DNA of 41,332 nucleotides from Gemmatimonadota bacterium (GTDB lineage Bacteria > Gemmatimonadota > Gemmatimonadetes > Gemmatimonadales > GWC2-71-9). Of this stretch, positions 17,167 to 30,613 are shown piece after piece (the stretch's first letter is position 1; the number at the start of each line of letters is the position of its first letter). The position numbers were made by a program, and so were the translations under genes. The stretch is taken from positions 1 to 41,332 of the forward strand of contig VGVQ01000027.1 in assembly GCA_016874005.1 (NCBI GenBank). Reading direction: 5' to 3'. The notes under the pieces are model-generated. The model was not told where the DNA came from. It searched no databases and saw only the letters and a list, made by a program, of their open reading frames with translations.

Positions 17167-19182
17167 ATGTCGCTTCGTGCTCTGATCGCGATCGGGTGCC
17201 TCGGGGCCCAGGCGGCGGTCGCCCAGTCCGGCGAGCGGTTCGGCTACCAGCATCTCGGGCGAGTGGTCACCGTGAGCGGTCTCGCGGTATCGGCGGACGG
17301 GAAGCGAGCCGCGTTCGTGACTTCCCGGCCCGACTACGCCGTCAACCGCAACCAAACGTCGTTGTGGGTCGTGGACCTGGCGGGCGGACCACCGCGCGAG
17401 GTACCGACCGGCCGTGGGTCGGTGGCCTCGCCACGGTGGTCGCCGAACGGCGAGGTCATCGCGTTTCAGTCGCCGGATTCGGCCGGCCGATCGCAGATCT
17501 GGACAATCCCGGCCGCCGGCGGCACCGCGACTCGCCTCACCGCGAATCCCACCGGGGTGATTCAATTCGCCTGGCGCCCCGACGGCCGGGCGATCGGCTT
17601 CAGCGCCGAGGACCCGCCACCGACTCGCGACGGCGACGACCGGTTCGTCACCACCTTCGAGATCGGGGCCCAGGACATCTTCCTTCGGCGGACCATGTAT
17701 CCGATCCACCTGTGGTCGGTGCCGGTATCGGGGGGCGAAGCCACCCGGCTCACCAGCGGCTCCTGGACCGTCGACTTCGTGCTCCCACCGGGTCCGCCGC
17801 CGTCGGGCATCAACTGGTCGCCCGACGGCAGCCGGATCGCGTTCGCCCGGCGGGTGGCGCCGGAAAGCGGCAAGCGCGACTCGACCCACATCGCCATACT
17901 CGAGGTCGCCTCCGGCGCGATCGTCCCGTTGACCGAGGCCCGGACCGACGAACGGTTTCCGATCTGGTCTCCCGATGGCCGGACCATCGCCTTCCGTCAG
18001 ACTCGGGACCGCCGGGCCGATCTCGGCTGGATCACCGAGGTGTACACGGTTCCGGCCGCCGGCGGCCCGGTCCGGAGCGTGACCCGCGCCCTGGACCGCC
18101 ACATCCTCCATGCCCAGTGGCTGGCGGATGGTCGCTCGCTCCTGGTGGCCGCCTCCCACGAGACCACCACCGGGGTCTGGCTCCAGCCGCTCGAGGGGCC
18201 GGCCCGGCGGGTCCCGTTAGGCGATCTCGTGGTCACCGGCGGGTTCGGCGCGGATATCGTCGCCACGCCGAGCGGTGCCCTGGTGTTCATCGCGGCCAGC
18301 GCGGGTCGGCCCAGCGAGCTGTACCTCCTCGACCCCCGGGTGGCCGCGCCTCGGCGGCTCACCGCATTCAACGACTGGGTCGGCGAGGTCGCGATGGCGC
18401 GAACCGAGCGGATCACCTGGGCCACGGATCGGTTCGAGGCCGACGGCGTGATCACCTATCCGGTGGGGTTCGATCCGGCCCGGCGCTATCCGCTCGCGCT
18501 GGTGATTCACGGCGGCCCGACCGCCTCCTCGAAGCAGTCGTTCGGCGCGTTGGCGCAGTTGATGGCCGGGTTCGGCATGGTGGTCTTCGAGCCGAACTAC
18601 CGGGGCTCCGACAACCTCGGCAACGCCTTCCAATCGGCGATCCGATTCGACGCCGGCGCGGGCCCCGGACGCGACGTCATGGCCGGACTGGCGGCGCTGC
18701 GCGCCAAGCCGTGGATCGACCGCGGCCGCACCGCGGTGACCGGGTGGTCGTACGGCGGCTTCATGACCAGCTGGTTGATCGGCGTCTACCCCGACGAATG
18801 GACCGTGGCGATGGCCGGCGCGCCGGTCACCGATTGGGAGGATCAGTACAACTACAGCGATGGGTCGATCGGCATTCGTCACACGATCGGCGGGTCGCCG
18901 TGGATCGGCGAGTGGGACAAGGAATTCCGGCGCCAGTCGCCAATCAGCTACGCCCGGCGGATTCGGACCCCGACGCTGGTGATGTCCCACATGGAAGATT
19001 TTCGAGTCCCGCCGACCCAGGCGATGCGGCTGTACCGGGCGATGAAGGACAATGGGGTCGAGACCAGGTTCATCGGGTTCCCGGGACGAACCCACAATCC
19101 GACCGACCCCGCCAACGCCCGCGAGCGGACCCGCCTGTGGGTGGAGTGGGTTCGCGAGCGGCTGGTGCCGAGCACGCCGTGA
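17167..19182 (+). CDS. Secreted S9 (prolyl oligopeptidase family) peptidase inside the pca operon
   Basis: 671 residues from ATG 17167, chosen because GAGGA lies just upstream and a clean signal peptide follows (MSLRALIAIGCLGAQAAVAQS); ATG 17125 is an alternative. Residues about 30-410 are WD40-like/TolB-type propeller repeats (SPDGRTIAF, SPDGSRIAF, SPNGEVIAF). The C-terminal alpha/beta hydrolase has Ser528 in GWSYGGF, an acid in SHMEDFRVPP and His in GRTHNP. The family cleaves short peptides, here probably in the periplasm. It lies between pcaG and pcaB, overlapping pcaB by GTGA. No role in aromatic breakdown is known for the family. Octamer at 18215. Confidence 0.92.
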   Translation: MSLRALIAIGCLGAQAAVAQSGERFGYQHLGRVVTVSGLAVSADGKRAAFVTSRPDYAVNRNQTSLWVVDLAGGPPREVPTGRGSVASPRWSPNGEVIAFQSPDSAGRSQIWTIPAAGGTATRLTANPTGVIQFAWRPDGRAIGFSAEDPPPTRDGDDRFVTTFEIGAQDIFLRRTMYPIHLWSVPVSGGEATRLTSGSWTVDFVLPPGPPPSGINWSPDGSRIAFARRVAPESGKRDSTHIAILEVASGAIVPLTEARTDERFPIWSPDGRTIAFRQTRDRRADLGWITEVYTVPAAGGPVRSVTRALDRHILHAQWLADGRSLLVAASHETTTGVWLQPLEGPARRVPLGDLVVTGGFGADIVATPSGALVFIAASAGRPSELYLLDPRVAAPRRLTAFNDWVGEVAMARTERITWATDRFEADGVITYPVGFDPARRYPLALVIHGGPTASSKQSFGALAQLMAGFGMVVFEPNYRGSDNLGNAFQSAIRFDAGAGPGRDVMAGLAALRAKPWIDRGRTAVTGWSYGGFMTSWLIGVYPDEWTVAMAGAPVTDWEDQYNYSDGSIGIRHTIGGSPWIGEWDKEFRRQSPISYARRIRTPTLVMSHMEDFRVPPTQAMRLYRAMKDNGVETRFIGFPGRTHNPTDPANARERTRLWVEWVRERLVPSTP

Positions 19183-21645: not shown

Positions 21646-22809
21646 ATGCGCACTCAGGTCGGGATCGTCGGCGCGGGTCCGGCCGGGCTGTTCTTGTCGC
21701 ACCGGTTGGCCCGGGCCGGAATCGACTCGGTGGTGCTCGAGCGGCGGAGCGAGGATTACGTGATCCAGCGGGTCCGGGCCGGCGTCCTCGAGCCCGGCAC
21801 GGTCTCGGCCCTCGAGGACGCCGGCCTCGGCGCGCGGCTCGCCCGGGAAGGGTTGGTGCACGACGGGTTCGAGCTGCGGTTCGGGGAACGGGGCGTCCGG
21901 ATCGACCTCCGCGGACTCACCGGACAGGGGATCACCATCTACGGCCAGCAGGAAGTCGTCAAGGACCTGATCGCCGCCCGGCGCGCGGCCGGGGCGGCGC
22001 TGCACTTCGAGGTCCCCGACGTCGCCATCGATCGGCTCGACTCCGAGCGTCCCCGGCTCACCGCGACCATCGACGGACATCGGACCACGGTCGAGTGCGA
22101 CGTCGTGGCCGGCTGCGACGGATTCCACGGAATCTCGCGCGGTCTGATTCCGGCATCCGCGCTGCGGGAGTACAGCCGCGAGTATCCCTACGGCTGGCTC
22201 GGGATCCTGGTCAGCGCGCCGCCATCGTCGGACGAGCTGATCTACGCCTGGCACGAGCGGGGCTTCGCGCTCCACAGCATGCGGTCGCCCACGGTGACCC
22301 GGCTGTACCTCCAGTGCGACCCGGACGACCGGCTGGAGGATTGGTCCGACGGACGGATCTGGGCCGAGCTGGACGCCCGGCTGACGCGGCCCGGTTGGCA
22401 ACTCGGCCGCGGGCCGATCCTCGAACGGGGCATAACGCCGATGCGGAGCTACGTCGCGGAGCCGATGCGGTATCGGCGGCTGTTCCTGGCCGGGGACGCG
22501 GCCCACATCGTGCCGCCGACCGGGGCCAAGGGGCTCAACCTCGCGATCCACGACGTCGGGGTCCTCTGCGACGCGCTGGTGGCGTGGTACCGCGAGGGCA
22601 CCGAGGAGGCGCTCGACCGCTACAGCGACCGCTGCCTGGCCCGGGTCTGGCGAGCCCAGGCGTTCTCCGCTCGGATGACGACCCTGCTCCACCGCGCCGG
22701 GGACGACCGGTACGAGGCCAAGCGGCAGCGCGCCGAGCTCGAGCACCTCGCTCGGTCGATAGCTGCCGCGACGACCCTGGCCGAGGATTACCTGGGTATC
22801 GCCGGATGA
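21646..22809 (+). CDS. pobA: 4-Hydroxybenzoate 3-monooxygenase
   Basis: FAD-dependent aromatic hydroxylase, 387 residues, making protocatechuate from 4-hydroxybenzoate with NAD(P)H and oxygen. The N-terminal FAD motif is VGIVGAGPAGLFLS, followed by RVRAGVLEPGTV (typical PobA substrate region), DVVAGCDGFHGISR (DG motif) and LFLAGDAAHIVPPTGAKGLNLA (GD motif). ATG 21646 is preceded in frame by GTG 21643. Its TGA overlaps the next ATG (22806). It feeds the pca enzymes upstream. Confidence 0.94.
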   Translation: MRTQVGIVGAGPAGLFLSHRLARAGIDSVVLERRSEDYVIQRVRAGVLEPGTVSALEDAGLGARLAREGLVHDGFELRFGERGVRIDLRGLTGQGITIYGQQEVVKDLIAARRAAGAALHFEVPDVAIDRLDSERPRLTATIDGHRTTVECDVVAGCDGFHGISRGLIPASALREYSREYPYGWLGILVSAPPSSDELIYAWHERGFALHSMRSPTVTRLYLQCDPDDRLEDWSDGRIWAELDARLTRPGWQLGRGPILERGITPMRSYVAEPMRYRRLFLAGDAAHIVPPTGAKGLNLAIHDVGVLCDALVAWYREGTEEALDRYSDRCLARVWRAQAFSARMTTLLHRAGDDRYEAKRQRAELEHLARSIAAATTLAEDYLGIAG

Positions 22810-24206
22810 CCGAGCGCCGGGCCTGGCTCGGACTCGGCGCGGCCATTGGGCTGGGGGCGTTGCTGCTGGCCCTGCCGACCCCGGCCGGTCTCTCGCCCGA
22901 AGGCCACCGGATGGGAGCTCTGTTCGCGTTCGCGACCGTGCTCTGGGCGACCGAGGCCTTTCCGGTGGCCGTCACCGCCCTCTTGGCCCTGGCCCTCCAG
23001 CCGTTGCTCGGGGTGGCGCCGCTCGGGGTCGCCTTTCAGACGTTCATCAGCCCGGTGTTCTTCTTCGTGATCGCGATGTTCGCGATCGCCCAGGCGTTCG
23101 TCTCGTCGGGGCTCGATCGCCGGTTCGCGCTCTGGCTCCTGGCCCACGCCGGCACCGACAGCCGCCGGGTCTTGGCGGCGTTCATGATCGGGACCGCCAC
23201 CATCTCGACGATCGTCTCGGACGTCCCCTGCACCGCGATCTTCATGGCGATGGCGTTAGGTCTCTTCGAGCGGATGGGGATCCGCCCCGGCGAGTCCAAC
23301 TTCGCCAAGAGCGTGATGATCGGGATCCCGATCGCGGCGTTCATCGGCGGGGTCGGCACCCCGGCTGGCAGCGCCATCAACGTGCTGGGCCTCGGACTCC
23401 TCGAGCAGCAGGCCAAGGTGGCCGTCTCGTTCCTGGCCTGGATGGCGATCGGGATCCCGATGGTCGTGGCCTTGCTGCCGGTGGCTTGGTGGGCGCTGGT
23501 CACAGTGTACCCGTCGGAGCGTCCGACCATCGGGGCCGTGGAGGCGGTCGGGGCCGAGCGGGCGGCGCTCGGCCCGCTGGGTCGGGCGGAGATCCGCACC
23601 ATGGCGATCGTGGGAACGATGGTGGCGCTCTGGGTGGCGTCGACCTGGATCCGCCAGCTCGACGTGGTGCTGGTCTCGGTGCTGGGGGCCGCGGCCCTGT
23701 TCTTCCCCGGGATGGGGATCTTCACCTGGGCGACGGTCCAGCGGAGCACCGGATGGGACGTGTTGCTGGTGATCGGGGGGGTGACGTCGTTAGGTGCCGC
23801 CTCGGCCAAGACCGGCTTGGCCGCCTGGCTGGTCGACGCGGCGCTGGGCGGAGCCGCCGGGATGGCTCCGATCTGGCTCCTGGCCGCGATCAGCGTCTTC
23901 ACCATCCTGGTCCATCTGGTCGTGACGATCGGCCCGGTGATCGTGGCCGTGGTGGTCCCGCCGATGATCGTCCTGGCGGAACGGGCCGGCGTCAACCCGG
24001 CGCTCTATGCCCTCCCGGTGATCTTCTCGGCGTCCTGCGCGTTCCTGTTGCCGCTCGACGCGGTGACGCTGGTGACCTATTCGCGGGGTTACTATCGGAT
24101 GCACGAAATGTGGCGGCCGGGCCTGGTGGTGAGCGCCGCCTGGGTGGTGGTGATGACCGCGCTGCTGATGCTCCTCGGGCCCGGGTTGGGTTGGTTTACG
24201 CGCTGA
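22806..24206 (+). CDS. SLC13/DASS-family anion transporter
   Basis: 466-residue membrane protein with about 11-12 hydrophobic segments. SLC13 (divalent anion:sodium symporter) traits include TISTIVSDVPCTAIFMAMALG, PIAAFIGGVGTPAGSAINVLG and the C-terminal ASCAFLLPLDAVTLVTYSRG, the paired re-entrant substrate motifs. ATG 22806 overlaps pobA, so it is the last gene of the pca transcript and may import the aromatic acid or export/import a dicarboxylate; substrate is inferred only from context. It has two variant octamers, CGTTAGGT, at 23254 and 23788. The 3' end overlaps the convergent gene by 11 bases. Confidence 0.88.
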   Translation: MTERRAWLGLGAAIGLGALLLALPTPAGLSPEGHRMGALFAFATVLWATEAFPVAVTALLALALQPLLGVAPLGVAFQTFISPVFFFVIAMFAIAQAFVSSGLDRRFALWLLAHAGTDSRRVLAAFMIGTATISTIVSDVPCTAIFMAMALGLFERMGIRPGESNFAKSVMIGIPIAAFIGGVGTPAGSAINVLGLGLLEQQAKVAVSFLAWMAIGIPMVVALLPVAWWALVTVYPSERPTIGAVEAVGAERAALGPLGRAEIRTMAIVGTMVALWVASTWIRQLDVVLVSVLGAAALFFPGMGIFTWATVQRSTGWDVLLVIGGVTSLGAASAKTGLAAWLVDAALGGAAGMAPIWLLAAISVFTILVHLVVTIGPVIVAVVVPPMIVLAERAGVNPALYALPVIFSASCAFLLPLDAVTLVTYSRGYYRMHEMWRPGLVVSAAWVVVMTALLMLLGPGLGWFTR

Positions 24207-24558
24207 CGGTTGCCGCCGCGATTCGCCCGTTAACGGCTTCCCTGCTGCCGACGAAGGCAATCCGCAGCTCATTCGCCTCCAGAGAATCCCGCACCGGGAA
24301 TCCGGGTGGGAGGCGCACCTCGCACTGCAACTCGATCCGTCGCCCGTCGACGGTCGGCGCGTGGCCGGCCGTGATCCAGGCGAAGCCGGTGCCGACGAGC
24401 ACGAGGCCCAGCCCGATCGAGAGGGCCATCGCGAGCTTGAGGAGCCCGGCGGTCTCGGCCGGCGCCTTCTTGGCGACCAAGATCCCGATGACGGCGCCTC
24501 CGACGAAACTGAGTGGAAGGAAGATACTGGCGATGAACATCCCCCGCCCGCCTTCCAT
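24196..24558 (-). CDS. Conserved-looking small membrane protein
   Basis: 120 residues from ATG 24558 (ATG 24540, MFIASIF, is equally possible and has a G-rich stretch upstream). Two hydrophobic helices, FIASIFLPLSFVGGAVIGIL and LAMALSIGLGLVLVGTGFAW, are followed by a soluble part, DGRRIELQCEVRLPPGFPVRDS, which has a beta-domain look seen in hypothetical membrane proteins of other bacteria. I do not know its function. Convergent with, and overlapping, the SLC13 gene by 11 bases. Confidence 0.6.
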   Translation of the reverse strand: MEGGRGMFIASIFLPLSFVGGAVIGILVAKKAPAETAGLLKLAMALSIGLGLVLVGTGFAWITAGHAPTVDGRRIELQCEVRLPPGFPVRDSLEANELRIAFVGSREAVNGRIAAATVSA

Positions 24559-24776
24559 CTCGGAGACCCGGTGCCATCCGGTGGCCTCGTCCGCGGCACG
24601 GACCGTGGCGGGGCGGAGGCGATCGCGGTGACGAGAGCGGTGAGGACGGTGACCACGGCGCCAACATAGGCTGCCGGGCCACACCACAGTGACCGGCACC
24701 GGGGTCGCTCGGTGAAGTTGCCAGGGTTAGGCGACCCGGTTTAGCCTCCGGGCGGGACAGACGTGAGGAGGGCGCG

Positions 24777-25462
24777 ATCGACACCAATCCGGCGGCGCGG
24801 CAGGCGGCGGACCTCCTGATCGGGGCCTTCGACCAATACCACCGCGAGTTCGCCGCGCTGACGCGAGCGGTCGGGGCGCATTTCGCCGCCGGGGACTGGC
24901 CGGCCCTCGACCGGGCGACCCAGGAGCGGCTCTTGCTCTACTCCCGCCGGCTCGACGAGCTGGTGGTCAGGCTGGGACGGCTGTCGCACACCCACGAGAT
25001 CCCCTGGACCGCGATCCGGCGCCGTTATCACGCCGCGATCGCGGACCGCCCGGACGAGGAGGTCGCCGCGACCTTCTACAACTCGGCCATCCGCCGTCTC
25101 CAGGGCACCGTCGGGGTCGACGAGTCCTCGGAATTTCTCGACCTCGAATCGCCCCCGCTCCCCGCCGACGGCGGGGTTCGGACCGAGTCGGCCGATGGAC
25201 TCGGAGCGCTGGCCGCGGTGGCCAGCCGAGCGCTCGAGTCGTTAGGCTGGCCCCTCGCCTCGCCGAACGTCGATGGCCACAAGGTGGCGGAGCGGCTGAC
25301 CTCGATGGTGCGAGCCGCCGATGGCGGGAGTCGGCTGGAGTGGTTCCCGGCCGGGTTCGTCCGGCGGCAGCGGGCCTTCTTGGTGGGCCGGTATGCCGCC
25401 GGGGGCATCCGGGTCCCGATCGTGATCGGGCTCGGCCAGTCGCCGGAAGGGGTCCGGGTCAC
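24777..25462 (+). pseudogene. aceK: AceK (isocitrate dehydrogenase kinase/phosphatase) N-terminal remnant
   Basis: About 228 codons resembling the regulatory half of AceK (E. coli 578 residues): AARQAADLLIGAFDQYHREF, GDWPALDRATQERLLLYSRR, FYNSAIRRLQGTVGVD, then WFPAGFVRRQRAFLVGRYAAG and PIVIGLGQSPEGVRV. Homology stops abruptly at about 25460, before the kinase catalytic residues. There is also no start codon: GAGGAGG (24765-24771) is followed at the right distance by ATC (24777) where ATG is expected. AceK adjusts flux between the TCA cycle and the glyoxylate shunt; this copy cannot be active as the usual enzyme. Confidence 0.75.
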
Positions 25463-25936
25463 CGCCCCATCGAGCGGCGGGACGATGTCCTGGTCTATAC
25501 CAGCGCCCCGCTGACCGACACCCTGGTGATCGCCGGGCCGACCTGGGTGACCTTGACCGCCGCCACCGACGGTCGCGATACCGACTTCACGGCCAAGCTC
25601 CTCGACGTCCACCCGGACGGGCGGGCACTCAAGCTCGGCCCCACCGAGGTCGGGGTGATCCGGGCCCGCTACCGCCACGGGCGCGAGCGCACCGCGCTGC
25701 TCGAGCCGGGCGCGATCGAGAGCTATCGAATCGAGCTGTTCGACATCGGGCACGCCTTCCTCCCGGGCCACCGGATTCGGCTGGAGATCGCCTCGAGCGC
25801 GTTTCCGTTCATCGACGCGAACAGCAACACCGGCGATCCCCCGGCGACCGACACCGGTTGGCGGGTCGCCCGTCAGACCGTCTATCACGACCGGACTCGA
25901 ATGTCGTTCGTGGAGCTCCCGGTCTGGCCTCGTTAG
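25460..25936 (+). pseudogene. CocE/NonD hydrolase C-terminal domain remnant
   Basis: From RPIERRDDVLVYTSAPL (25463) to the TAG at 25934 the frame encodes the C-terminal jelly-roll domain of CocE/NonD or X-Pro dipeptidyl-peptidase hydrolases: ATDGRDTDFTAKLLDVHPDG, LEPGAIESYRIELFDIGHAFLPGHRIRLEIASSAFP, NSNTGDPPATDT, YHDRTRMSFVELPVW. The catalytic alpha/beta hydrolase half is missing; the upstream sequence is AceK in another frame. The coding sequence is otherwise uninterrupted, so the loss looks recent. The stop codon TAG is part of a CGTTAGGC (25931). Confidence 0.8.
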
Positions 25937-25966
25937 GCGTTCCCCGCCGCCCCGGAGCCGGCCGGA

Positions 25967-27334
25967 TCAGCGGACCAGGGCCTGATAGACCATGACCGGG
26001 AACCGCTGATTGAGCCCGGTGCTGTCGGGTCCCCAGGTCTGCCGGTAGATCAGCGCGACGATGCCGTTGGTCGGGTCCACCCAGTACCTGGTCCCCAGCG
26101 CCCCACCCCATGCGAACGAGCCGGGCGGGTCCGGCTCGTGCCGGTAGCTCGCGGCGGTCGAGACCGAGAAGCCCAAGCCGAACTTGCGACCGACCGCGTC
26201 GATGTCGATCGGCCCGGTCTGATCGCTGGTCATCATCTTGACGGTGTTGGGGCTCAGGAACCGGATCCCGTTGTACTCGCCGCCGTTGAGCATCATTTGG
26301 AGGAACACGGCGTAATCCCGGAGCGTCGAGGAGAGGCCGCCGCCTCCGCCGAAATACACCTTCGAGTCGGTGGCGTAACCGAGCGACAGGCTATCGGCGA
26401 TCGGAATGAACGGCGCGAAGCGGAGGATCCGCTCCTGCGACACCACCCCGGTGCTGTCGATCCGGAAGAAGTTGGCGACCCGGCCCGCCTTGTCCGCCGG
26501 GACGTTGAAGTAGGTGTCCCGCATGCCGAGCGGCTGAAAGAGCCGGGTTCGGAGGAACTCGTCCAGGGTCTGGCCGGACCACACCTCGACCAGGTGGCCG
26601 AGCACGTCGACGCTGAAGCCGTAGGTGTAGCGCTCGCCCGGCTGGTGCATCAAGGGGACTCTCGCCATCCGGGGAACGGCGTCGGCCAGGCGCTCCCCGT
26701 TGCCATCGACGCCGAAGGTATGGTGGACGGTGATGCCCTCCTTGTGGTAGAGCTGCCGAGCGCCGCCTAACGGGTAGCTCAACCCGGCGGTGTGGCTCAG
26801 GAGCTCTCGAACGGTGGGCGGCCGGGTGGCCGGCACCAGCGTCGTGTCGCCCTTGGCGCTCACGGCCAGGACCATGGGCTTGGCGAAGGCCGGGAGGAAC
26901 TTGGCGATGGGATCGTCGAGGACGAACTTGCCCTCCTCGTAGAGCATCATCGCCGCGACGCTGGTGATCGCTTTCGACTGCGAGGCGATCCGGAAGATCG
27001 CGTCGGTTCGAAGCGGCGTCTTGGCGGCCAGGTCGTCGTACCCCCGGGCCCGGTGGTACACCACCGTGCCGTGCCGGGCGATCAGCGCGGCCGCCCCCGC
27101 CATCTTGCGCTGGGCGATGAGGGTGTCCATCAGGGTGTCGAGCCGCGCCAGGCGGGCCGAGGAAAACCCCACCGTTTCCGGCGTCCCGTCGAGGAGCACC
27201 GGGAGCCGACCCTGGTCGGTCGGCGGCGCGCAGCCCACGGCGAGGACCGCGATCGCGGTCCCCGCGGCCCGGGCCAGGCGCCGGCCGGGCGGCGCCGTCA
27301 ATCTGCCTAACGTCGGCGGATCGGCCCTGGTCAT
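25967..27334 (-). CDS. Class C beta-lactamase-like serine hydrolase, lipoprotein
   Basis: 455 residues. A signal sequence with lipobox LAVG-Cys35 suggests a membrane-anchored periplasmic protein. The S-x-x-K motif is Ser118-Gln-Ser-Lys121 (RIASQSKAIT). YTYGFS lies at the position of the Tyr-x-Asn motif. Other family parts: VRELLSHTAGLSYPLGG, YSVDVLGHLVEVWSGQTL-like FSVDVLGHLVEVWSGQTLDEFL, and the C-terminal WGGALGTRYWVDPTNG. It belongs with esterases or D-aminopeptidases of the beta-lactamase family; the substrate is unknown. ATG 27334 overlaps the S9 peptidase stop upstream, so the two are co-transcribed. Octamers at 26765 and 27305. Confidence 0.9.
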   Translation of the reverse strand: MTRADPPTLGRLTAPPGRRLARAAGTAIAVLAVGCAPPTDQGRLPVLLDGTPETVGFSSARLARLDTLMDTLIAQRKMAGAAALIARHGTVVYHRARGYDDLAAKTPLRTDAIFRIASQSKAITSVAAMMLYEEGKFVLDDPIAKFLPAFAKPMVLAVSAKGDTTLVPATRPPTVRELLSHTAGLSYPLGGARQLYHKEGITVHHTFGVDGNGERLADAVPRMARVPLMHQPGERYTYGFSVDVLGHLVEVWSGQTLDEFLRTRLFQPLGMRDTYFNVPADKAGRVANFFRIDSTGVVSQERILRFAPFIPIADSLSLGYATDSKVYFGGGGGLSSTLRDYAVFLQMMLNGGEYNGIRFLSPNTVKMMTSDQTGPIDIDAVGRKFGLGFSVSTAASYRHEPDPPGSFAWGGALGTRYWVDPTNGIVALIYRQTWGPDSTGLNQRFPVMVYQALVR

Positions 27335-29382
27335 GGTACCGGGGCGCTCGACTTCTTGTAGGTTTGGAACCACTTTTCCCGGAACGAAATGGTATGGAGG
27401 AAGTTGGACGGGCGATTGAAATAGGCGTGCCATTCGTCTTGGAGCCGGACCATCACCGTGGGCACCTGCCGCATCTTGAGGGCGGCGTAATACTCCTCGG
27501 TCTGGGGCATCGGGGTCCGAAGGTCCCCTTCGGGGGTGAGCAGCATGGTCGGGGTCTTCACGTTGCCGACGTACATCAGCGGCGAACGGCGAAGGTGCTC
27601 GGACGGGTCTTCCCAGGGCAGCTTGGCGAAGTTGCGATACCAGCCAGCCCCGTCGGTGGTCCCCACGAAGGAAAGCCAGTTGATCACCGGGCACTCCGAC
27701 GAGGCGGCCGCGAAGCGATCAGTGTGGCCGACCACCCACGCGGTCAACACCCCGCCGCCGCTGCAGCCGTAGACGAACATGTTGTTGGTGTCGACGTAGC
27801 CACGCTTGATGACGGTATCGACGCCGGCCATCAGGTCGTCGTAGTCCTTGCCGGGATAGGCGTTCTTGATGGCGTTGCCGAAGGCGCTCCCGTACCCCGA
27901 ACTCCCCCGAGGATTGGTGAACAGGACCAGGTACCCCATCCCCGCGTAGATCTGCCATTCCCACCACATGAAGGTGAGCGAACTGGCATACATGCTGTGC
28001 GGGCCGCCGTGAATGGCCAGCATCAGCGGGTACTTCTTCCGGGGATCGAAGTCGGGCGGCTTGACGACCCAGCCCTGGACCCGGAGTCCTTCGACCGAGG
28101 GATACCAGATTTCTTCGAGGCTGCCGAGTCGCTTGCCGGTCAAGATATCGCCGTTGAGGTCGGTGACCCGTTTGACCGCGGGGGCTGGCGCCTTGAGGTC
28201 GATGACGGCGATGTCGCCGGGCTGGGTGAAGGTGCTTTGGATCAGCGCGGCGGTCCCGTTCGGGGCCAGGCTCAGGCCGGTGAGAACCTGATCGGCGGTG
28301 GTCAGCCGCCGGGGCTCACCACCGGCGACGCTCGCGAAGAAGAGTTGGGCCTGCCCGCGGTCTTGGGCGATGAAGTAGAGGCCCGACCCGTCGGGTGCCC
28401 AGGCGACGTTCTCGGCGCTGCGGTCGAGAGAGCCATCGACCTGCCGCGGGTTCGAGCCGTCGATGCCCATCAGGTACAGCTTGTTGGCGATGTAGGTGTC
28501 GTCGGTCCAGTCGTGGCCCTGATAGGCGACCAACCTGCCGTCGGGCGAGACCACCGGGCCGCCGTCGGGCCCCTTGCGGGTGGTGAGCTGCCGGACGGTC
28601 TTGGTGGCGACCGACACGGCATAGATATCGGACTCCCGCCAGGTGTTGTCGGCGTTCGGGACCCGGTTCGCGCCGAAGAGAATCTCCCGTCCGTCCCTGC
28701 TCCAGGCCAGTTGCCCGTGATTCCAGGGACCGTCGGTGAGCTGCACCGACGTCCCGCCGGTGGCCGGGACGACGAAGATCTGACTCCGCCCCAGATCGGT
28801 GTATCCGGCCCAATCGGCGCGGTAGGGATAGCGATCGATGACCTTCGGCGGTGGGGCCCACTGGGCGCCGGCCGGCTTGCCGGGCAGCGCGGTGCTCCAC
28901 TTCGACGGCTCAGGTACCATCGCGGTGTAGGCAATCCACCGGCCCTCCGGCGACCAGGCCAGGTTCCCGGCCCCGGTTTCGACCCGGGTGATCTGCGAGG
29001 TGGCCCCCTCGGCGTCCATGTACCGCACGAAGATCTGGGCGCCAGCGGGCTCCCCTTGTTTGACGAAGGCGAGCCGGGTCCCGTCCGGTGACCACTTGTG
29101 CCCGCCGGCATCGACCAGCCACCGGTTCCTGGTGCCGTCGGCGTTGATCAGCCAGATCGCCTGTCGCCACCGATCGGACATCTTGTCGACCCACCACCGG
29201 GAATAGGCGATCTGCTTGCCGTCCGGCGAGATCTCGGGGCCGCCGCCCCGGAAGAAGTCGCGGGGCGCCTCGGCCTCGAGGTAGTCTTCCATGGTGAGCC
29301 GGTTGGCCACCGGGGTCTGGGCCACCAGCAGCCCCGCGCCTGCCGCGAGGGCGGCGCTCGTCAACACTGTGGTACGACGCAT
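27331..29382 (-). CDS. Secreted S9 family peptidase (acylaminoacyl-peptidase-like)
   Basis: 683 residues. Signal peptide MRRTTVLTSAALAAGAGLLVAQ. The N-terminal propeller has SPDGKQIAYSRW, SPDGTRLAFVKQG, SPEGRWIAY, SPDGRLVAY repeats. The catalytic domain begins near GWVVKPPDFDPRKKYPLMLAIHGGPH. Ser541 is in YGCSGGG, Asp in TPEGDLRTPMPQTE and His in LQDEWHAYFNRPSN. The odd Cys before the nucleophile (usually Trp or Gly) is seen in some family members. Transcribed with the serine hydrolase lipoprotein behind it, suggesting a shared role in peptide or D-amino-acid peptide degradation outside the cytoplasm (inference). Confidence 0.93.
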   Translation of the reverse strand: MRRTTVLTSAALAAGAGLLVAQTPVANRLTMEDYLEAEAPRDFFRGGGPEISPDGKQIAYSRWWVDKMSDRWRQAIWLINADGTRNRWLVDAGGHKWSPDGTRLAFVKQGEPAGAQIFVRYMDAEGATSQITRVETGAGNLAWSPEGRWIAYTAMVPEPSKWSTALPGKPAGAQWAPPPKVIDRYPYRADWAGYTDLGRSQIFVVPATGGTSVQLTDGPWNHGQLAWSRDGREILFGANRVPNADNTWRESDIYAVSVATKTVRQLTTRKGPDGGPVVSPDGRLVAYQGHDWTDDTYIANKLYLMGIDGSNPRQVDGSLDRSAENVAWAPDGSGLYFIAQDRGQAQLFFASVAGGEPRRLTTADQVLTGLSLAPNGTAALIQSTFTQPGDIAVIDLKAPAPAVKRVTDLNGDILTGKRLGSLEEIWYPSVEGLRVQGWVVKPPDFDPRKKYPLMLAIHGGPHSMYASSLTFMWWEWQIYAGMGYLVLFTNPRGSSGYGSAFGNAIKNAYPGKDYDDLMAGVDTVIKRGYVDTNNMFVYGCSGGGVLTAWVVGHTDRFAAASSECPVINWLSFVGTTDGAGWYRNFAKLPWEDPSEHLRRSPLMYVGNVKTPTMLLTPEGDLRTPMPQTEEYYAALKMRQVPTVMVRLQDEWHAYFNRPSNFLHTISFREKWFQTYKKSSAPVP

Positions 29383-29536: not shown

Positions 29537-30613
29537 ATGACCGTTCCCCGCACCGAACCCCTCGCCGTGGGCCTGATCGGGCTCGGCAACGTCGCCCTCG
29601 CCCACCTCGAGGGGTACCGACAGCTCACCGAGATCCGGGTGGTCGCCGGCGCCGACCCCCGCGCCGAACGCACCACCGAGATGGCGGCCCGGTTCGGGTT
29701 TCGTGGCTACCTCGACTACCAGGAGATGCTCGAGCGAGAGCGGCTCGACCTGGTCTCTGTCCTCTCGACGGTAGCGACCCATCCGGCCGCGGTCATCGCG
29801 GCCGCCCGGCGTCGGTTGCCGGTGCTGTGCGAGAAACCGCTCGCGCTGACGCTGGCCGACGCCGACCTGATGATCGCGGCGTGCCGGTCCGCCGGGGTCC
29901 CGCTGTTCTACGCGGCGTCCTACCGCTTCCTGGAACCGGTGGTAAAGGCTCGGGAGTTGATTCAGGCCGGCGCGATCGGCGAGGTGCGCCTGTTGCTCGA
30001 GACCATGATCGGCACGACCGGTCCCTCCGGATATCACGACATGGGCCCCCACCACTACCCGCCAGGGGGGCCCGGCGGATCCGGCAACGGGCTGATGGAT
30101 CACGGAATCCACCTGGTCGACGTGTTCGGCTGGTTGATCGGAAGCGAGGTCGAAAGCGCGACCGGGGCAGGCCAGATCTCGGGCGAGGCCCCGAGGCCGG
30201 AACACCTCACGATCCGGTTCCGGTCGGGTGCGGTCGGTCACTTGATCTACGACGACGCGACCTGGCCGGCGGACCTGCCCGCCGAGGGGGCGTTCAGTTG
30301 GGCCCCCACCTGGGACGAGGTCGCCGCGGGCCAGGGAATCGGCCGAGGCGGGATATGGCAGCAGCACCCCGGGAGTATCAGGGTACATGGTACGTTAGGA
30401 TCGCTCCGAATCTTCCACTACGCCAATCAGCTCTTCCTCCGGACCGCCCGGGGTATCGAGCAGATCCGGGTGGCCGATCGGCCGATGCCGGCACAGTTCG
30501 CCGCGGAGCTGGCCTCGTTCGCGGCAAGCATCCGGGCCGGGGGGCCGGCGGCGGTACCGGGCGAGGTCGGTCGGGCCGCCCTGGCTACGGTGTTGGCGGC
30601 CTATTCGCGGTAG
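29537..30613 (+). CDS. Gfo/Idh/MocA-family oxidoreductase
   Basis: 358 residues. N-terminal NAD(P)-binding motif LAVGLIGLGNVALAHLEGY, the family's signature LCEKPLALTLADADLMI (the catalytic-type Lys in EKP), and the second-domain motif NGLMDHGIHLVDVFGWLIG with its candidate catalytic His. The family oxidises sugars, inositol or related polyols; the substrate is not indicated. It stands alone between divergent and convergent neighbours, 154 bases from the S9 peptidase start. It has a variant octamer, CGTTAGGA, at 30393. Confidence 0.92.
   Translation: MTVPRTEPLAVGLIGLGNVALAHLEGYRQLTEIRVVAGADPRAERTTEMAARFGFRGYLDYQEMLERERLDLVSVLSTVATHPAAVIAAARRRLPVLCEKPLALTLADADLMIAACRSAGVPLFYAASYRFLEPVVKARELIQAGAIGEVRLLLETMIGTTGPSGYHDMGPHHYPPGGPGGSGNGLMDHGIHLVDVFGWLIGSEVESATGAGQISGEAPRPEHLTIRFRSGAVGHLIYDDATWPADLPAEGAFSWAPTWDEVAAGQGIGRGGIWQQHPGSIRVHGTLGSLRIFHYANQLFLRTARGIEQIRVADRPMPAQFAAELASFAASIRAGGPAAVPGEVGRAALATVLAAYSR

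Follow-up and report, generated by a model that had tools for sequence, protein, structure and literature searches.

A truncated aceK gene and a truncated CocE/NonD-type hydrolase gene, read in the same direction, are joined out of frame at positions 24777-25936 of the window (the whole of contig 27, 41,332 bp, from a genome of 3.88 Mb in 49 contigs, 97.1% complete), and the junction is probably a recent scar of chromosomal loss or rearrangement that affected both genes. The coordinates of the two remnants and of the features around them are given in Table 1. For annotators, the locus is a warning against labelling 24777-25936 as aceK or as a CocE hydrolase.

Table 1. Features of the AceK-CocE locus (window positions unless a locus is named) and aceK start positions in relatives
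Feature	Position	Strand	Basis or remark
Shine-Dalgarno-like GAGGAGGG	24765..24772	+	Sequence; a purine-rich run also stands directly before the ATC in G001 and G005
aceK remnant: 230 residues of the N-terminal AceK regulatory domain, apparently starting at ATC, without kinase domain	24777..25466	+	
Junction, 7 bases fitting either gene	25460..25466	+	End of AceK homology at 25466; start of CocE homology at 25460
Continuation of the AceK frame up to a TGA stop (15 codons without homology)	25467..25514	+	
cocE/nonD-type hydrolase remnant: C-terminal PepX_C domain including stop codon, without catalytic domain	25460..25936	+	
aceK ATC starts in relatives	L027:3956, L028:4286, L026:2056	-	Sequence comparison

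The AceK frame is open from 24777 up to a stop codon at 25512-25514 (245 codons) and matches the AceK regulatory domain (PF20423) with its residues 11-229 (E 1.8e-28; 100 bits, above the cut-off of 25), yet only over profile positions 1-230 of 302. The profile search found no match to the AceK kinase domain (PF06315) in this frame, and the full-length equivalog NF002804 is hit with 82.6 bits, below its cut-off of 488. Compared with AceK proteins (PF20423 plus PF06315, NF002804), the remnant shares the N-terminal regulatory-domain sequence as far as position 230 of 302 but lacks the last 72 positions of that domain and the whole kinase domain. The CocE frame matches PF08530 at profile positions 73-216 of 217 (E 1.6e-28; 100.6 bits, cut-off 22.5) and TIGR00976 at positions 403-549 of 550 (107.5 bits, cut-off 66.3), and it is 64% identical to the genome's own complete paralogue on contig C11. 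With the CocE/NonD hydrolases (peptidase family S15-like; PF02129 plus PF08530, TIGR00976) it has the C-terminal PepX_C domain in common but lacks the first 72 PF08530 positions and the alpha/beta-hydrolase domain. No PF02129 match was found upstream of the remnant; the sole match to that profile on contig 27 is a weak one within an S9 peptidase (18697-18885). These spans bear out the original prediction that an AceK N-half and a CocE C-terminal domain, both truncated, are joined out of frame.

The position of the junction could be narrowed to a few bases from both sides. When the AceK fragment was aligned with 11 other AceK sequences, the aligned stretch closed in all of them in one Ala column, which ends at 25466 in the window, and a Gly five residues before this column is common to 10 of the 11. 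Identity at the DNA level to the intact aceK genes of two same-genus genomes is 6-15 of 21 bases per block before 25466 (merely 6-10 of 21 in the final two blocks) and 4-6 of 21 past it. On the other side, the CocE paralogue within the same genome becomes similar in DNA sequence exactly at 25460, and identity to six CocE homologues rises from 8-12 of 30 bases upstream of this position to 15-22 of 30 in the 30 bases that follow it. The AceK end and the CocE start therefore place the junction at 25460-25466, with an overlap of about 7 bp; the switch between homologies in different frames had been put at 25455-25465 beforehand, which is correct to within a few bases. An extension of CocE homology further upstream was also considered from a 'D..RPV' resemblance at 25421-25459, which 1 to 35 of the 209 windows in the same frame outscored, according to the homologue chosen from the six, a mixed result, and it was treated as chance, the AceK alignment covering the same bases. 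Two domain matches with E<1e-27 that meet within 7 bp cannot be a product of chance.

Both remnants still look coding and undecayed. GC content by codon position is 0.75/0.53/0.90 in the AceK part and 0.69/0.52/0.89 in the CocE part, and three neighbouring genes are alike; the scarcity of stop codons is weak coding evidence here because the genome is very G+C-rich. The AceK fragment is 46-47% identical over the aligned region to the intact AceK proteins of G001 and G005 (two genomes of the same genus, whose AceK proteins are 74% identical to each other in this region), and its mean identity to nine distant AceK sequences (about 0.305) is no lower than that of the intact proteins (0.284 for G005 and 0.271 for G001), so the fragment has not decayed faster. 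Since the remnants read cleanly, the event would be young compared with the divergence of the genus. The earlier impressions that the remaining parts were otherwise undamaged and that the break was recent thus hold for coding-like composition and for divergence of the AceK fragment, respectively.

We then looked for the missing halves in the rest of the genome. PF06315 had no match in any of the 49 contigs (an E. coli control was positive), and querying the genome with the DNA of 24700-26000 returned the locus itself, the C11 paralogue of CocE and some short, weaker matches, with no second AceK fragment; the search for another aceK copy that had been proposed as a check therefore found none in the assembled contigs. 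Full-span matches to PF02129 (starting at profile position 1 and ending at 260-262 of 262) number 23, all in open frames of at least 581 aa, so that an orphan N half of CocE did not show up among them. The same 23 matches indicate a strong expansion of the CocE/S15 group here. Absence of the missing halves is not absolute, the genome being 97% complete. A 34-mer spanning the junction occurs once in the genome when up to 3 mismatches are allowed, and no long repeat was detected at the junction within 23500-28000; a repeat or a mobile element was accordingly rejected as its cause. Tetranucleotide distance across the junction is 0.109, compared with 0.093-0.116 at four other cuts of the contig, and in tetranucleotide use both sides of the junction are nearer to two further stretches of this genome than to four tested relatives.

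A single deletion would leave both halves absent, whereas a join of two distant places would leave both at contig ends. The absent halves, the unique junction and the steady composition make a genuine loss in the organism the likelier reading, although they do not replace reads. Under this reading, the breaks would fall within the part of aceK that encodes the regulatory domain and within the C-terminal-domain part of a same-direction CocE/NonD gene, and one event could have taken away at least ~332 codons from the 3' end of aceK (estimated from the 562-residue G005 protein) and ~412 codons from the 5' end of the hydrolase gene (from the genome's own 570-residue paralogue), together about 2.2 kb of missing DNA as a lower bound. 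Neither remnant would be expected to give a working enzyme, as the kinase/phosphatase domain and the alpha/beta-hydrolase domain would both be gone. As a kind, the junction is what we take to be an ordinary bacterial deletion scar or gene remnant: such scars likewise consist of two truncated same-direction genes with a short junction overlap and absent missing halves, and the present locus differs solely in its gene pair. Inside a 518-kb contig of another same-genus genome, G004, a 5'-truncated CocE remnant was observed (L163:3652-4271, minus strand), which implies that such losses occur in the genus. It is one of five other short CocE-tail matches picked among the matches listed, of which three run to contig ends and one is a frame-split gene.

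The join may instead be an assembly artefact, namely a product of a chimeric read or of variant collapse in an organism whose aceK and second CocE gene are both intact, which the original prediction had offered beside a recent deletion of same-direction genes and which we regard as possible but unlikely. It would agree with the intact aceK of G001 and G005, with a fragmented assembly from which about 3% may be missing, with the otherwise healthy look of the fragments, and with the observation that none of the relatives shows a comparable contig-internal truncation. However, both missing halves would then have to lie outside the assembled contigs, and the junction is unique, with an overlap of about 7 bp that seems insufficient for a repeat-driven de Bruijn misjoin; the steady composition also speaks against an artefact, though it is blind to a join within one genome.

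Whether aceK and the hydrolase gene had been neighbours was examined in relatives, with gene order compared by tblastn of window ORFs (tblastx gave noise). The aceK genes of G001 and G005 adjoin a divergent, putatively TspO-like gene and, in G001, also an enoyl-CoA hydratase gene, and the nearest CocE-type match in G006, a member of the same family, lies ~8 kb from aceK. The adjacency that the original prediction had proposed to check was thus seen in none of these three relatives, and the event may have been larger than a deletion between neighbours, or a rearrangement; with short contigs and poor conservation of local gene order, the two genes may still have been neighbours before the loss. 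In G004 (L097:8893-12621), homologues of the transporter (22806-24203) and the oxidoreductase (29537-30610) that flank the locus are ~1.2 kb apart with one frame between them, whereas in the window the gap is 5.3 kb and holds both remnants together with a gene of the beta-lactamase family and an S9 peptidase, so that the interval looks like a site of gene turnover. The beta-lactamase-family gene to the right of the junction has a 74% relative in G005, with no adjoining CocE gene on that short contig. Elsewhere in the window, a penicillin-amidase family gene (157-1851) matches its profile from position 170 of 675, its N part being missing or off the contig.

Retention of the AceK regulatory domain as a stand-alone protein, for example as a binding partner or a metabolite sensor with an incidental CocE tail, appears very unlikely. 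The 245-codon open frame, the coding-like GC by position and the lack of excess divergence would suit such a protein, but the domain is itself incomplete, ending at position 230 of 302, and the source genome is alone among the 102 genomes of a family survey, 25 of which contain PF20423, in having a short regulatory domain inside a contig. Short matches that might have represented regulatory-only AceK elsewhere, in G001 (C546), G006 (C55 and C144) and G121 (C125), all reach contig ends and were discarded. A more specific version, in which the truncated AceK would be an expressed regulator that keeps the sensing half after loss of the kinase in a genome with an isocitrate lyase-type gene, is highly improbable. 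Production of a functional AceK-CocE fusion through -1 frameshifting was rejected as having next to no chance: the CocE frame is open from 24767 and a -1 shift could read through, but an in-frame slippery heptamer (X XXY YYZ) is absent from the AceK frame in 24777-25511 and the arrangement was found in none of the relatives searched.

The metabolic consequence of aceK loss would probably be modest. In a survey of 61 genomes (the source genome and 60 relatives), PF20423 was found in 13 and PF06315 in 12, the difference being the source genome. The isocitrate lyase family (PF00463) is present in 31 of the 61, including all 13 with the AceK regulatory domain (in three of these 13, G009, G017 and G018, the match is weak at about 70 bits and may represent other family members), and the source genome itself has an isocitrate lyase-type frame of 448 aa on C13. 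As many as 18 of the 31 genomes with PF00463, including G002 and G003 from the same genus, have no AceK match, which indicates that living without AceK is common in this group. The expectation that AceK loss would remove control of isocitrate dehydrogenase was therefore overstated, and the AceK-CocE remnant leaves the picture of glyoxylate branch-point control unchanged. Control of this branch point without AceK has been described, e.g., in mycobacteria (PMC4999502). Among the literature listings and abstract openings searched, none dealt with AceK and glyoxylate in Gemmatimonadetes. As a remnant, the locus may record how aceK was recently lost from a lineage of Gemmatimonadota in which AceK is patchy.

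The start codon of aceK may be of more interest than the junction itself. The window aceK frame contains no ATG, GTG or TTG from the upstream in-frame stop to residue 1, which is encoded by ATC (24777-24779) downstream of the Shine-Dalgarno-like site. ATC stands at the same place in G001 (two copies) and G005, behind GGGGAG or GGGGGA, and the nearest upstream in-frame ATG, GTG or TTG in these genomes is at least 57 bases off; in most other AceK genes examined, a usual start codon lies close to this position. On this comparison, a conserved ATC behind a purine-rich site appears to serve as the start codon of aceK in this genus, and the ATC start would not have been created by the truncation. 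The listings and abstract openings searched contained none on an ATC start codon of AceK, and non-canonical starts with regulatory roles have been reported, such as GTC in Streptomyces sigR (PMC5472188).
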